From Tateyamaria omphalii (GTDB lineage Bacteria; Pseudomonadota; Alphaproteobacteria; Rhodobacterales; Rhodobacteraceae), in the NCBI RefSeq assembly GCF_014651375.1, contig NZ_BMWT01000003.1, positions 434,001 through 498,000 of the forward strand: a stretch of DNA of 64,000 nucleotides, in the 5' to 3' direction. Position 1 is the first letter of the stretch. Every line of letters begins with the position of its first letter. Below are positions 48,239 to 50,904 of the stretch, piece after piece. Under the pieces are notes generated by a model that saw nothing but the letters and a program-made list of their open reading frames with translations, did no database searches and was not told where the DNA came from. A program made the position numbers and the translations under genes.

Positions 48239-48242
<4 letters not shown>

Positions 48243-49135
48243 GATGTGACAATACCAAGAGGATCGTTTTGTCTAGGATTCAGCGCTCCTAACTTGTCGG
48301 GGTTGCGCATCATATACATCCAACAGATCAAGCCACTGGTGTTTAGCGCCACAGTGACAAGCGCTTCGGTCTGACCGTCTTTGGTCATCAGCACCGCCGG
48401 GTGGCCATTCGCCGTGACCTGTGTCGGCACCAGACGCCCGGCATTTTTCAACGTAACCGCGTGCGAGACCTGAACGATATCGTCCGGACCAACGAGCGGG
48501 CGGCGGGCCGCGCGTGCCTTGGCGCCGCCATCCGAGATCGAGACGGCATCGTCAGACAGATAAGCCTTGGCCGCGTCAAGATCGTTGCTGGCAATGGCGG
48601 CAAGAAAGCCGCTGATCTGGGCGGCGCGTCTGCTTGCGGGTTGGGTCAGGTCCGGGGCCGATTGCGCAACGCGGCGGTGCGCGCGGCTGACCAATTGGCG
48701 ACAGGCGGCTTCGGATTTGCCCAACGTCTGGGCGATGTCGGCATAGGACGCATCGAACGCCTCGCGCAGGACAAATGCGGCGCGTTCACTGGTGGGCAAC
48801 GTGTCCATCACCCAGAGCAAGGCGAGTTCGCATTCTTGCGCTTGGGCAAAGCTGTCTTCCGCCGTGTTTTCATCTACGATCAATGGCTCGGGCAGCCATG
48901 GTCCAACATAGGATTCCCGCCGCGTTTTGGCCCGTCGCAGGCTGTCGATGGCCACCCGTGTTGCGGCGGTGCGCAACCATGCGGCCGGTGTTCGGATGGC
49001 GGCATGATCCGCTGCGGCCCACTTGAGCCACGTGTCCTGTACTGCGTCTTCGGCGGCGGCCCTTTCACCGAGCATGCGATAGCACAGGGCCGTCAGCATC
49101 GGCCGCTGTGCTTCGAATTGGTCGGTCCACGTCAT
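48239..49135 (-). CDS. ECF41-type sigma factor with fused SnoaL-like C-terminal domain
   Basis: Extracytoplasmic-function sigma factor of 298 residues. The sigma-2 region (MLTALCYRMLGERAAAEDAVQDTWLKW) is followed by a WLPEPL linker, sigma-4 (ADIAQTLGKSEAACRQLVSRA) and a ~100-residue extension with DGGAK and the terminal NPDKL. These linker and tail motifs are those of group ECF41, where the extension replaces an anti-sigma factor. DGGAK differs from the usual DGGGK. It overlaps the AhpD-like gene by 4 bp, the classic partner, and a matching promoter lies upstream of the operon. Confidence 0.9.
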
Positions 49136-49680
49136 GCGGCGACCGGTTGGGTAAGTGTGATGGACGTGCCATTCACATCCAGCCGCTGGCACAGTTTGCC
49201 GTGGCCCATGCCACGCTTGAGCACTGGGTAGGTACGGGTAAAGGCAGCGGCGAAGGAGGCGGCCACGACGGCGCGGGGTCCATGGGCTGCTTCGATCCGG
49301 GTGCGCAGTGCATCCAGCGTGTCATCGCCCCGAATGGCCGCCCATGCGAACTGGTAGCCGAGGCCGAAGTCACCTGCCGCATCCGGTGCGCCATTCAGAC
49401 TGGCCTGGATATCGGCAGCACGGGCCCCAAAGGCCAAGGCCATGTCCACGGTCAGTTGGGCGCAAGGGCCGCAATCGCCCTCGACGGCTGAGCCGACCAT
49501 GGCCCCCATCCGGACGTGATGCGCGGATTTGGGGCCGGCATAGGCGCTGACCTTCTGGAACAGGGTCATGCGCAGACCGGCGCGTGGGTCGATGTCGATC
49601 AGGTCATGCATGTACTGCGTATTGTAGTTGAATTGTTTGCCAAAGCGGCGGGCACCGGAATGAAGAAATGCGCGGATCAT
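49132..49680 (-). CDS. carboxymuconolactone decarboxylase/AhpD-like protein
   Basis: Protein of 182 residues; the ATG at 49680 has AAGGAG 8 bases upstream. It has an all-helical AhpD-like fold with the redox pair EGDCGPCAQL (Cys-Gly-Pro-Cys) near residues 60-69 and a preceding HHVRMGAMV. The family includes alkyl-hydroperoxide-reducing partners and decarboxylases; here a peroxidase-like role is inferred from the CxxC. In the ECF41 groups this gene type is the usual sigma-factor target. It overlaps both neighbours by 4 bp. Confidence 0.82.
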   Translation of the reverse strand: MIRAFLHSGARRFGKQFNYNTQYMHDLIDIDPRAGLRMTLFQKVSAYAGPKSAHHVRMGAMVGSAVEGDCGPCAQLTVDMALAFGARAADIQASLNGAPDAAGDFGLGYQFAWAAIRGDDTLDALRTRIEAAHGPRAVVAASFAAAFTRTYPVLKRGMGHGKLCQRLDVNGTSITLTQPVAA

Positions 49681-50060
49681 GAGGTTTGCTCCTTGGGTTG
49701 CATTGAGAAAGCGATTGCAAGGCATGTCCAGACTGGAAGCTGGATGCCTAACAGGTTGACGAAAGCCACCAGATCAAAGGCAAAGCCCCGGTTGGCCCAT
49801 GTGACGAGGTGATAGAGAGCGTGGAGGGCGAGCCAGCTAAGGCCCACGATCAACACATCGTGGTTACGCGAGCGTGCTGCGTACAATACCGCGAGGCCGC
49901 TGGTGCCGAACACCAAGGCGAAGTCGCGAACGAAATGCATGTTGAAGGGCCTCATGGGTGCAACACCGGGGGTGTTGGAGTACCAGAGCTGCGGCTGCGT
50001 CCACATCAGGATGCCCAAACCCACTAAATAGATCCCTACGATCCAGAGAACACGGTCCAT
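49677..50060 (-). CDS. small four-helix membrane protein, first gene of the ECF41 operon
   Basis: Protein of 127 residues with about four membrane helices (VLWIVGIYLVGLGILMW, FALVFGTSGLAVLYAA, HDVLIVGLSWLALHALYHLV, LVAFVNLLGIQLPVWTCLAIA) and histidines in the third. No named family recognised. It starts about 32 bases downstream of a well-matched ECF41 promoter and overlaps the AhpD-like gene by 4 bp. Its place at the head of the operon suggests it is itself a target of the sigma factor. Confidence 0.8.
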   Translation of the reverse strand: MDRVLWIVGIYLVGLGILMWTQPQLWYSNTPGVAPMRPFNMHFVRDFALVFGTSGLAVLYAARSRNHDVLIVGLSWLALHALYHLVTWANRGFAFDLVAFVNLLGIQLPVWTCLAIAFSMQPKEQTS

Positions 50061-50148: not shown

Positions 50149-50186
50149 AAAAAAGCGGCGGTCCCCAGGGAGGAGGGGGCCGCCGC
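50149..50186 (-). terminator. terminator of the CcsR-like array
   Basis: Stem of 11 pairs with one bulge (50155-50166 with 50176-50186) whose loop carries the CTCCTCCCT motif; on the minus strand it is followed by TTTTTT (50154-50149). Confidence 0.85.
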
Positions 50187-50226
50187 CTTCGTCATGCCGG
50201 CCGGTCAGGGAGGAGGAGGACCGGTT
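50149..50226 (-). ncRNA. CcsR-like sRNA, third copy, with terminator
   Basis: Two hairpins whose loops carry the anti-Shine-Dalgarno motif CCTCCTCCC on the minus strand (plus-strand GGGAGGAGG at 50208-50216 and 50168-50176). The second hairpin is very stable and is followed by six T's, so it ends the array. Paired with the other two copies downstream of the DUF1127 gene. Confidence 0.75.
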
Positions 50227-50261
50227 CAGCAATCTCTGCACCCTTCGGTGCGGTATTCGTG

Positions 50262-50335
50262 CGACGACATTCGGGAGGAGGTGAATGCCGCCGCTCTTGC
50301 AACATCGCGTCGGTCAGGGAGGAGGAAGACCGAAA
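50262..50335 (-). ncRNA. CcsR-like sRNA, second copy
   Basis: Two hairpins with CCTCCTCCC loops: CGGTC/GACCG at 50311-50332 and CATTC/GAATG at 50268-50287. The internal motif spacing of 44 bp is like the 39-40 bp in the other copies. No own terminator, so it is probably released by processing of a longer transcript. Confidence 0.72.
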
Positions 50336-50357
50336 GTGCGACGTATTGCGGTGTTAA

Positions 50358-50433
50358 AGTGCGGCGACGCCAGGGAGGAGGAGGGCGCCGCCGCCAATTT
50401 CAGATGCCCCAGGGAGGAGGAGGGGGCGATCTG
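50358..50433 (-). ncRNA. CcsR-like sRNA, first copy
   Basis: Two hairpins, one at 50401-50433 (CAGAT, CCCC / GGGG, ATCTG) and one at 50361-50394, each with CCTCCTCCC in the loop on the minus strand. It begins 18 bases after the DUF1127 stop codon, as expected if it is cut from the same precursor. Confidence 0.75.
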
Positions 50434-50450
50434 ATCCTTGTGTTCTTGTG

Positions 50451-50681
50451 TTACGCTGTCAGGTCGTTCGCGGATTCCCAAGCGACGCGCTTCAGTTCCG
50501 ACCGGTGCAGGCCCAGATCGGCCAGTTCACGGTTGGACAGAGCGTTCAGCTCGGTGAATGTGCTGCGGAAGATACGCTGTTTTGCGCGACGCTCTGCAGC
50601 GGCTTCGAACACGCGGGCAACCGTGCCGAGGATACGTTCCACGAGGTCGCTGCGTCGTGCTACATCATTGTAATAGGCCAT
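50451..50681 (-). CDS. DUF1127 small RNA-binding protein, CcaF1-like
   Basis: Protein of 76 residues; start at 50681 (frame is open to 50813 but begins MAYYNDVARRSD here). The C-terminal half is the DUF1127 domain (FRSTFTELNALSNRELADLGLHRSELKRVAWESA). In Rhodobacter sphaeroides the DUF1127 protein CcaF1, encoded directly ahead of the CcsR sRNAs, binds RNA and takes part in sRNA maturation. Gene order here is the same, so I infer the same role. Divergent from mrp. Confidence 0.88.
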   Translation of the reverse strand: MAYYNDVARRSDLVERILGTVARVFEAAAERRAKQRIFRSTFTELNALSNRELADLGLHRSELKRVAWESANDLTA

Positions 50682-50713
50682 GTTCTTTGCCTCATGCTCA
50701 TTTCGTTGACCCA

Positions 50714-50741
50714 AATATAAGCCAATGCTGCGGGTGCACAA
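50714..50741 (-). promoter_or_regulatory. candidate promoter for DUF1127/CcsR unit
   Basis: On the minus strand TTGTGC (50741-50736), 16 bases, TATATT (50719-50714), predicting a start near 50707 and a 25-base leader. It could be sigma-70 or a heat-shock sigma (RpoH) promoter, as the R. sphaeroides counterpart depends on RpoHI/RpoHII. The -35 does not distinguish them. Confidence 0.4.
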
Positions 50742-50904
50742 TGGACACCAATTCAATGCTGCTATGCAGCAATTGCATGGGGTTGTGGTCCAAAGCCTGG
50801 GCAATGTGCACAAGGAAACAGCGTTTCGGACGGTGCTGTTTTCAAGCTCTTGTAAGACGCGAAAATTATGCCATTTCTTTCATCATAAAGCGGGGAAATC
50901 GAGC

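Follow-up and report, generated by a model that had tools for sequence, protein, structure and literature searches.

What is a tight cluster of identical nine-base motifs doing behind a small gene of Tateyamaria, and what switches it on? In the window (the whole 64-kb stretch of DNA that we analysed), the motif CCTCCTCCC has seven exact copies, and six of them lie on the minus strand at 50168-50420, the number and strand given in the original prediction. In 100 dinucleotide shuffles of the window, the mean number of copies is 0.61 and the largest is 4, and no shuffle reaches 7. Across the whole genome (4.75 Mb in 22 contigs), which by its named relatives groups with Tateyamaria (Roseobacteraceae), this 9-mer occurs 26 times and the reversed pattern 24 times. 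The 9-mer alone is thus not rare; six copies clustered in hairpins are. The cluster and the gene before it contain the following features.

50451..50681, minus strand: ccaF1-like gene for a 76 amino acid DUF1127 protein (PF06568, E-value 6.7e-10)
50401..50433, minus strand: hairpin 1, loop motif at 50412-50420, unit 1
50361..50394, minus strand: hairpin 2, loop motif at 50373-50381, unit 1
50302..50344, minus strand: hairpin 3, loop motif at 50317-50325, unit 2
50261..50294, minus strand: hairpin 4, loop motif at 50273-50281, unit 2
50195..50231, minus strand: hairpin 5, loop motif at 50208-50216, unit 3
50149..50190, minus strand: hairpin 6 with six T's, an intrinsic terminator, motif at 50168-50176, unit 3

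The motif spacings along the array, when recounted, are exactly the 39, 56, 44, 65 and 40 first reported, which gives a 2+2+2 grouping. Folding prediction places every one of the six motifs within a hairpin. The claim that each copy occupies a loop stands for hairpins 1-5, where the motif is entirely in the loop, and has to be modified for hairpin 6, where its first two bases are paired. The minus-strand RNA of 50149-50445 folds at -133.7 kcal/mol (z = -6.3), and none of 200 shuffles is as low. Hairpin 6 is directly followed by six T's, as expected from its description as a terminator; a terminator-like hairpin was also looked for between the DUF1127 gene and hairpin 1, and none was seen. The DUF1127 gene adjoins the array directly upstream on the same strand, where it had been placed. 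None of the genome's three other DUF1127 genes has an exact motif in the surrounding 3 kb, and the downstream DNA of the two that were inspected carries terminator-like hairpins without the motif. The window also holds, on the minus strand, a SigJ-type ECF sigma factor gene (48239-49192; NF007214, 281 bits, cut-off 271) and, overlapping it, a gene for 197 amino acids (49132-49725) with no Pfam or NCBIfam match.

Does the array belong to a known RNA family? The association of DUF1127 genes with CcsR RNAs has been published as the CIN1 locus (PMC10253847). A CcsR-type array had been predicted here, with a covariance-model search as the proposed check, and that search matches all three predicted units. 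RF02791 (CcsR1) aligns with each of them from end to end (model positions 1-83), at 53.8, 29.0 and 39.8 bits (E-values 3.4e-12, 7.3e-5 and 4.9e-8), with the best score below the Rfam gathering score of 65.3. Such a low score is normal in the family. In a sample with almost one genome per genus, 248 of 296 family genomes have CcsR1 matches at E ≤ 0.001 and only ten exceed the gathering score, while 48 of the remaining 286 have no match at all. The gathering score works here as a cut-off and not as a biological criterion. Matches are also found in 24 of 41 genomes of relatives and in 19 of 20 genomes of the genus Tateyamaria. The control genome of Thermus composti matches CcsR1 at E ≤ 0.001 in both searches as well; weak matches therefore need context, and it is on context that the 29-bit unit rests. 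The three-hairpin family RF02344 (ar14) matches too, over windows of three hairpins (47.1 and 39.9 bits, below its cut-off of 58.8), so the unit boundaries are uncertain. Taken together, these results support the view that the locus is a CcsR/alpha-r14-type RNA operon (CIN1 locus) of a Tateyamaria species and that the array extends a known sRNA operon.

To compare arrays between organisms, we used 81 loci, comprising the window and 80 named loci (L numbers) kept from 309 DUF1127 relatives. The comparative gain is a set of 68 arrays: downstream of the gene, a distance rule finds 2 to 15 exact motifs in 68 of the 81 loci, a single motif in eight loci and none in five. The commonest number is six (23 loci) and the largest is 15. 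The rule yields 417 array sites; 34 more exact motifs fall outside it, in 12 loci, no farther than 0.4 kb upstream or 1 kb downstream of the gene. These 34 sites are further array members, not background; 31 of them fold. They precede the gene start by 229-367 bases in ten loci (L090, L095, L097, L098, L093, L102, L104, L113, L131, L132) and follow it by 731-934 bases in L135 and L137. All 451 exact motifs are on the gene's strand. When both sides of the gene are counted, 77 of the 81 loci have at least two motifs, the exceptions being L088, L107, L121 and L151.

The original prediction spoke of three sRNAs rather than four, which agrees with the three units here. Such a number is common in the genus, where motif counts vary: each of the 19 Tateyamaria loci has four, five or six exact motifs, and one with five (L036) has a near-match at the expected place of the sixth. 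Of the three loci with the best CcsR1 matches, L165 has fourteen exact motifs, and L166 and L167 have eight each, which makes four two-hairpin units, as published for R. sphaeroides. On a plasmid of Paracoccus jeotgali, a DUF1127 gene is followed by seven exact motifs. T-runs come after 41 of 68 last hairpins and after 3 of 341 inner hairpins. The spacing between units changes by amounts not divisible by three, which makes a coding role less likely.

We consider it very probable that this is a CIN1-type operon, in which one promoter gives a ccaF1-like mRNA with a tail processed into Shine-Dalgarno-pairing RNAs under LysR-type control. Anatomy, homology, structure and promoter conservation were computed; the start, the processing, the target pairing and the regulator are inferred. 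A single promoter, with its start probably near 50706, would transcribe the ccaF1-like DUF1127 mRNA together with its 3' untranslated tail, which comprises three CcsR-like units of two hairpins each, the terminator hairpin being the last. RNase E, as in R. sphaeroides, would presumably cut this tail into RNAs of about 80-90 nt. Their CCUCCUCCC loops may pair with purine-rich Shine-Dalgarno stretches (GGGAGGAG) and so block or destabilise mRNAs, probably those of transport and catabolic genes. Transcription would be set by a LysR-type regulator on an element upstream of a sigma-70- or RpoH-like core promoter.

Which mRNAs could be paired? The genome has 25 sites of the form GGGAGGAG-N4-10-ATG vs. 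3 for the reversed pattern. One of the 25 is the array itself read in antisense, and 20 come with an open reading frame of at least 100 amino acids. Among these 20 are five transport proteins (four solute-binding proteins and one TctA); the rest include several metabolic enzymes and two products without a Pfam match. These candidate targets may reflect the transporter theme of rhizobial anti-Shine-Dalgarno sRNAs. Alternatively, the tail might work mainly in cis, its hairpins binding the DUF1127 protein and autoregulating its mRNA, with target pairing secondary. The accessible accounts of R. sphaeroides lend this some colour: CcaF1 is an RNA-binding protein there, involved in the maturation of CcsR, a process that excess CcaF1 is said to disturb, with a shorter half-life of CcsR1. 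However, autoregulation needs no invariant loop complementary to Shine-Dalgarno sequences, the CcsR RNAs of R. sphaeroides are described as targeting flhR mRNA, and in some relatives the hairpins precede the gene. We therefore regard a mainly cis-acting tail as rather unlikely, and retain RNAs that act on other mRNAs as our reading of the array.

What controls the operon? An upstream promoter element had been overlooked in the original prediction; the pair CYATGCANTTGCTGCATRGCAGCATTG and TTGTGCANNNGCAGCA is present in 77 of the 81 loci. In the window the promoter region reads as follows.

50754..50780, minus strand: conserved upstream element CCATGCAATTGCTGCATAGCAGCATTG, with TGCA-N6-GCAT (T-N11-A); proposed LysR-type activator site
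50726..50741, minus strand: second promoter block TTGTGCANNNGCAGCA, covering the likely -35 and the spacer
50713..50721, minus strand: likely -10 region CTTATATTT (family consensus CCTATNTT)

The consensus from the alignment of 81 loci is CYATGCANTTGCTGCATRGCAGCATTG, 12-13 variable bases, ATTGTGCANNYGCAGCATT and CCTATNTT. The alignment was anchored on the best site (77 of 81 loci with at most two mismatches), a choice that favours the 15 aligned columns and not the flanks. The second block (best match, at most three mismatches) accompanies the upstream element in 77 of 77 loci; its TTG and GCAG are invariant, and the distance between the two is 30 or 31 in 76 of the 77. For 14 fixed bases, two mismatches and 500 positions, simple arithmetic puts the odds of a chance match at approximately 0.002 per locus, although the loci are related. 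The element is absent from L095, L098, L126 (which has nine motifs) and L151. With at most one mismatch, TGCTGCNNNGCAGCA is found in 61 of the 67 named loci with a downstream array and in 8 of the 13 others. Among 28 further family loci (L185 of the original 29 was left out for having too few motifs on one strand), 25 have the site with at most two mismatches, L169 with three, and L187 and L193 with five. L088, L107 and L121, with fewer than two motifs nearby, keep the element (L151 does not), which argues that it serves the gene or operon and not the array alone. In six Sulfitobacter- and Roseobacter-like loci (L093, L102, L104, L113, L131, L132), the hairpins come before the gene and the element lies approximately 380-450 bases upstream. 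The element precedes the hairpins there, so the order is promoter element, hairpins, gene.

Within the element, TTGCTGCATAGCAGCA occupies 50757-50772. This pattern recurs without mismatch in one other region of the genome, between a phasin and a phaC gene. Allowing one mismatch, it is found before the array in nineteen Tateyamaria genomes and in two further genera (G021, G024), and was not found there in the more distant L052 and L054; L053 was left out for having too few motifs. TGCA-N6-GCAT, which is present in the window, is exact in 62 of the 77 loci, and T-N11-A holds in 76. It would lie at about -71 to -58 from the start deduced from the -10. The -35 TTG and the -10 CCTATNTT fit sigma-70 and RpoH about equally well, each spacer being one base short (S. 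meliloti consensus). A second exact copy of the window's TGCATAGCAGCATTG occurs at the start of flgI; as a regulatory site it was set aside as chance.

We propose that the conserved element is a LysR-type switch site, by analogy with rhizobia. According to the accessible sources, NfeR1 of S. meliloti, the founder of alpha-r14 with three CCUCCUCCC hairpins, is activated by the LysR-type protein LsrB through TGCA-N6-GCAT (T-N11-A) at about -72 to -57 (PMC10746234), nearly the same distance from the start as we predict for the element here. VtlR is described as controlling DUF1127 genes and AbcR2, with the motif CAATGCAGCCATGCA (PMC12595884). The stated LsrB/VtlR consensus is GCAT-N3-TG-N3-T (PMC7486931), from which the window departs in one place, GCATAGCAGCATT having A for the T of TG and hence reading AG. 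A search for alpha-r15 (AbcR), as a route to a rhizobial LsrB sequence, gave no match in 115 genomes of the class or in the controls, so it is uninformative. LsrB is syntenic with trxB. In this genome the gene beside trxB is of the Lrp/AsnC type, so that synteny yielded no LsrB candidate. A literature search that had the key CcsR, CcaF1 and cuckoo papers outside its reach returned no report joining CcsR with a LysR-type regulator at the promoter and, among the matches listed, none that links PhaR with this operon.

The palindrome TTGCTGCANNGCAGCA was first read as a PhaR box, by which the polyhydroxybutyrate sensor PhaR would repress the operon in place of LysR-type activation. Without mismatch, the palindrome occurs in only two regions of the genome, the array promoter and the phasin-phaC gap; the S. 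meliloti phaP1 and phaP2 promoters are reported to have two PhaR sites flanking the -35 (PMC12542648), and the loose B. diazoefficiens consensus NGCN3GC[GA]N3, as given in the available text (PMC10888616), fits. But the S. meliloti core YGCRNYGCR, as published, needs C or T at the sixth base, where 76 of the 77 loci have A or G (A in the window; T in L106 only), while the phasin-phaC sites do fit that core. The conserved stretch is also longer (27 nt) and includes the outer TGCA-N6-GCAT. Because the sixth base fails the S. meliloti consensus in so many loci, we have lowered this reading and think it quite improbable. In the phasin-phaC gap itself, two TTGCTGCARTGCAGCA-type palindromes that fit the PhaR consensus lie at C2:673146-673189 (L061/L291).

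The other comparative gain is this promoter element, conserved nearly base for base in an operon for which the available literature names only an RpoH-type promoter. If a LysR-type redox or nutrient sensor binds the element, this would offer a direct test of how an entire pool of Shine-Dalgarno-blocking RNAs is switched on, and of a circuit common to rhizobia and Rhodobacterales.

Are the hairpins themselves maintained as RNA structures? The original prediction named covariation of the stems in relatives as a check. The loci were gathered by the exact motif, so loop invariance is there by construction. In 391 of the 417 sites, the hairpin's own arms pair in a run of at least 6 bp, vs. 3230 of 8206 draws in which arms were swapped between loci. 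Inside the 68 arrays, the foldable motif-like sites comprise 409 exact ones, 33 with one mismatch and 7 with two. The stems do covary in a set of 43 hairpins from as many loci, pre-selected for at least nine of ten pairs: the covariation score is 1.05 vs. 0.24 shuffled, and cells changed on both sides number 149 vs. 39 shuffled, with 0 of 500 shuffles as high in either measure. Sliding the register gives much less covariation. Ten pairs show both-side changes, but 221 of 500 shuffles have at least as many, so this count is uninformative. In the 13 first units from the genus, of which 12 are distinct, every counted cell is paired, both-side changes occur in 2 of 16 pairs (reached by 24 of 500 shuffles), and the covariation score is 0.117 vs. 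0.069 shuffled (0 of 500); for hairpin 1 only the five outer pairs are counted, as a bulge shifts the register between species.

A covariance model of the hairpin has matches in 19 of the 20 genus genomes. In its own genome it gives four matches at E ≤ 0.05, all in the array (150 of 991 first-look candidates scored). A dispersed REP-like repeat or a mere multi-part terminator without trans-acting RNA function, to which a downstream motif number ranging from 0 to 15 between relatives and the presence of one terminator hairpin might point, is highly improbable, because the own-genome model matches among the scored candidates are confined to the array and exact loops far outnumber near-misses while the stems covary, and the R. 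sphaeroides homologues are described as established sRNAs. In three other Tateyamaria genomes, model matches also lie outside the arrays (G012:C211:37410, G009:C6:137782 and G002:C72:7018; 37.4, 30.8 and 27.4 bits).

Two single CCTCCTCCC terminator-like hairpins occur elsewhere in the genome. One of them (C1:232817, L001) is in a nitrate-assimilation (nrtA) leader behind nasT-nasS-like genes: a nasS-like gene and an ANTAR-domain gene precede it and an nrtA-like gene follows, nasS and nrtA being named by their position and by comparison with annotated relatives on plasmids. DNA searches of 20 genus genomes with the stretches of the two hairpins gave matches in 9 and 8, together 13 genomes in which the leader (L001, L263-L277) has the same gene order; the other seven gave no match. 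In 12 of these 13 genomes the terminator loop reads CCTCCTCCC, and in G014 it reads ACTCCTCCC. Of nine plasmid relatives, chosen from 30 listed (473 records matched; gene start guessed in two), two Leisingera have ACTCCTCCC as the loop and Roseibium has CCTCCTCC; in the other six the loop differs or is unrecognisable. The loop is thus largely conserved within the genus, and beyond it only in part. Rfam gave no match up to E 0.5 for six nitrate-leader loci. The second homologous CCTCCTCCC terminator lies near a contig start (C3:303, minus strand, L009), where the remaining 300 bases of the contig show no clear target gene. The nitrate leader, with its identical loop, offers a second, quick test of whether the loops act in trans.

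A wider reading, which we put forward as possible rather than probable, is that throughout Rhodobacterales an LsrB/VtlR-class LysR regulator switches the DUF1127-CcsR operon via one ultra-conserved site, and that in Tateyamaria the terminated nitrate leader adds further CCUCCUCCC RNA. If this were true, one regulator class would govern, in two bacterial orders, both DUF1127 proteins and the RNAs that block Shine-Dalgarno sequences, and the terminated leader would tie the CCUCCUCCC RNA pool to nitrate sensing.

How does the locus compare with known systems? CcsR1-4 of Rhodobacter (Cereibacter) sphaeroides (RF02791, with CcaF1) share with it the DUF1127 gene followed by tandem two-hairpin units, the CCUCCUCCC loops and the 3'-end terminator; R. 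sphaeroides has four units, while the Tateyamaria array has three. An RpoHI/RpoHII promoter is reported for CIN1 of R. sphaeroides, and the locus here has the conserved upstream element in addition. As published accounts describe it, the NasT antitermination leader of Paracoccus has the same arrangement as the nasS/nrtA-like leader of Tateyamaria. In the alpha-r14 family (RF02344; S. meliloti NfeR1; cuckoo RNAs), CCUCCUCCC is described as unpaired and the stems as divergent, as here. NfeR1 is reported as a 123-nt, three-hairpin RNA, whereas the array here follows a DUF1127 gene and its ar14 matches are below the cut-off; the accessible part of the NfeR1 literature contains no statement that NfeR1 is in a DUF1127 operon. 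Upstream of the NfeR1 promoter is a conserved stretch of 29 nt, with TGCA-N6-GCAT bound by LsrB, and the element here is similar. LsrB has been described as seemingly unique to Rhizobiales (PMC11975290), which counts against the LysR-type reading. In rhizobia and relatives, the LysR-type VtlR/LsrB regulon is reported to include DUF1127 genes and the AbcR/NfeR1 sRNAs. The reverse complement of the VtlR motif, TGCATGGCTGCATTG, is one base from the TGCATGGCAGCATTG of many loci in our set and two bases from the window copy, TGCATAGCAGCATTG.
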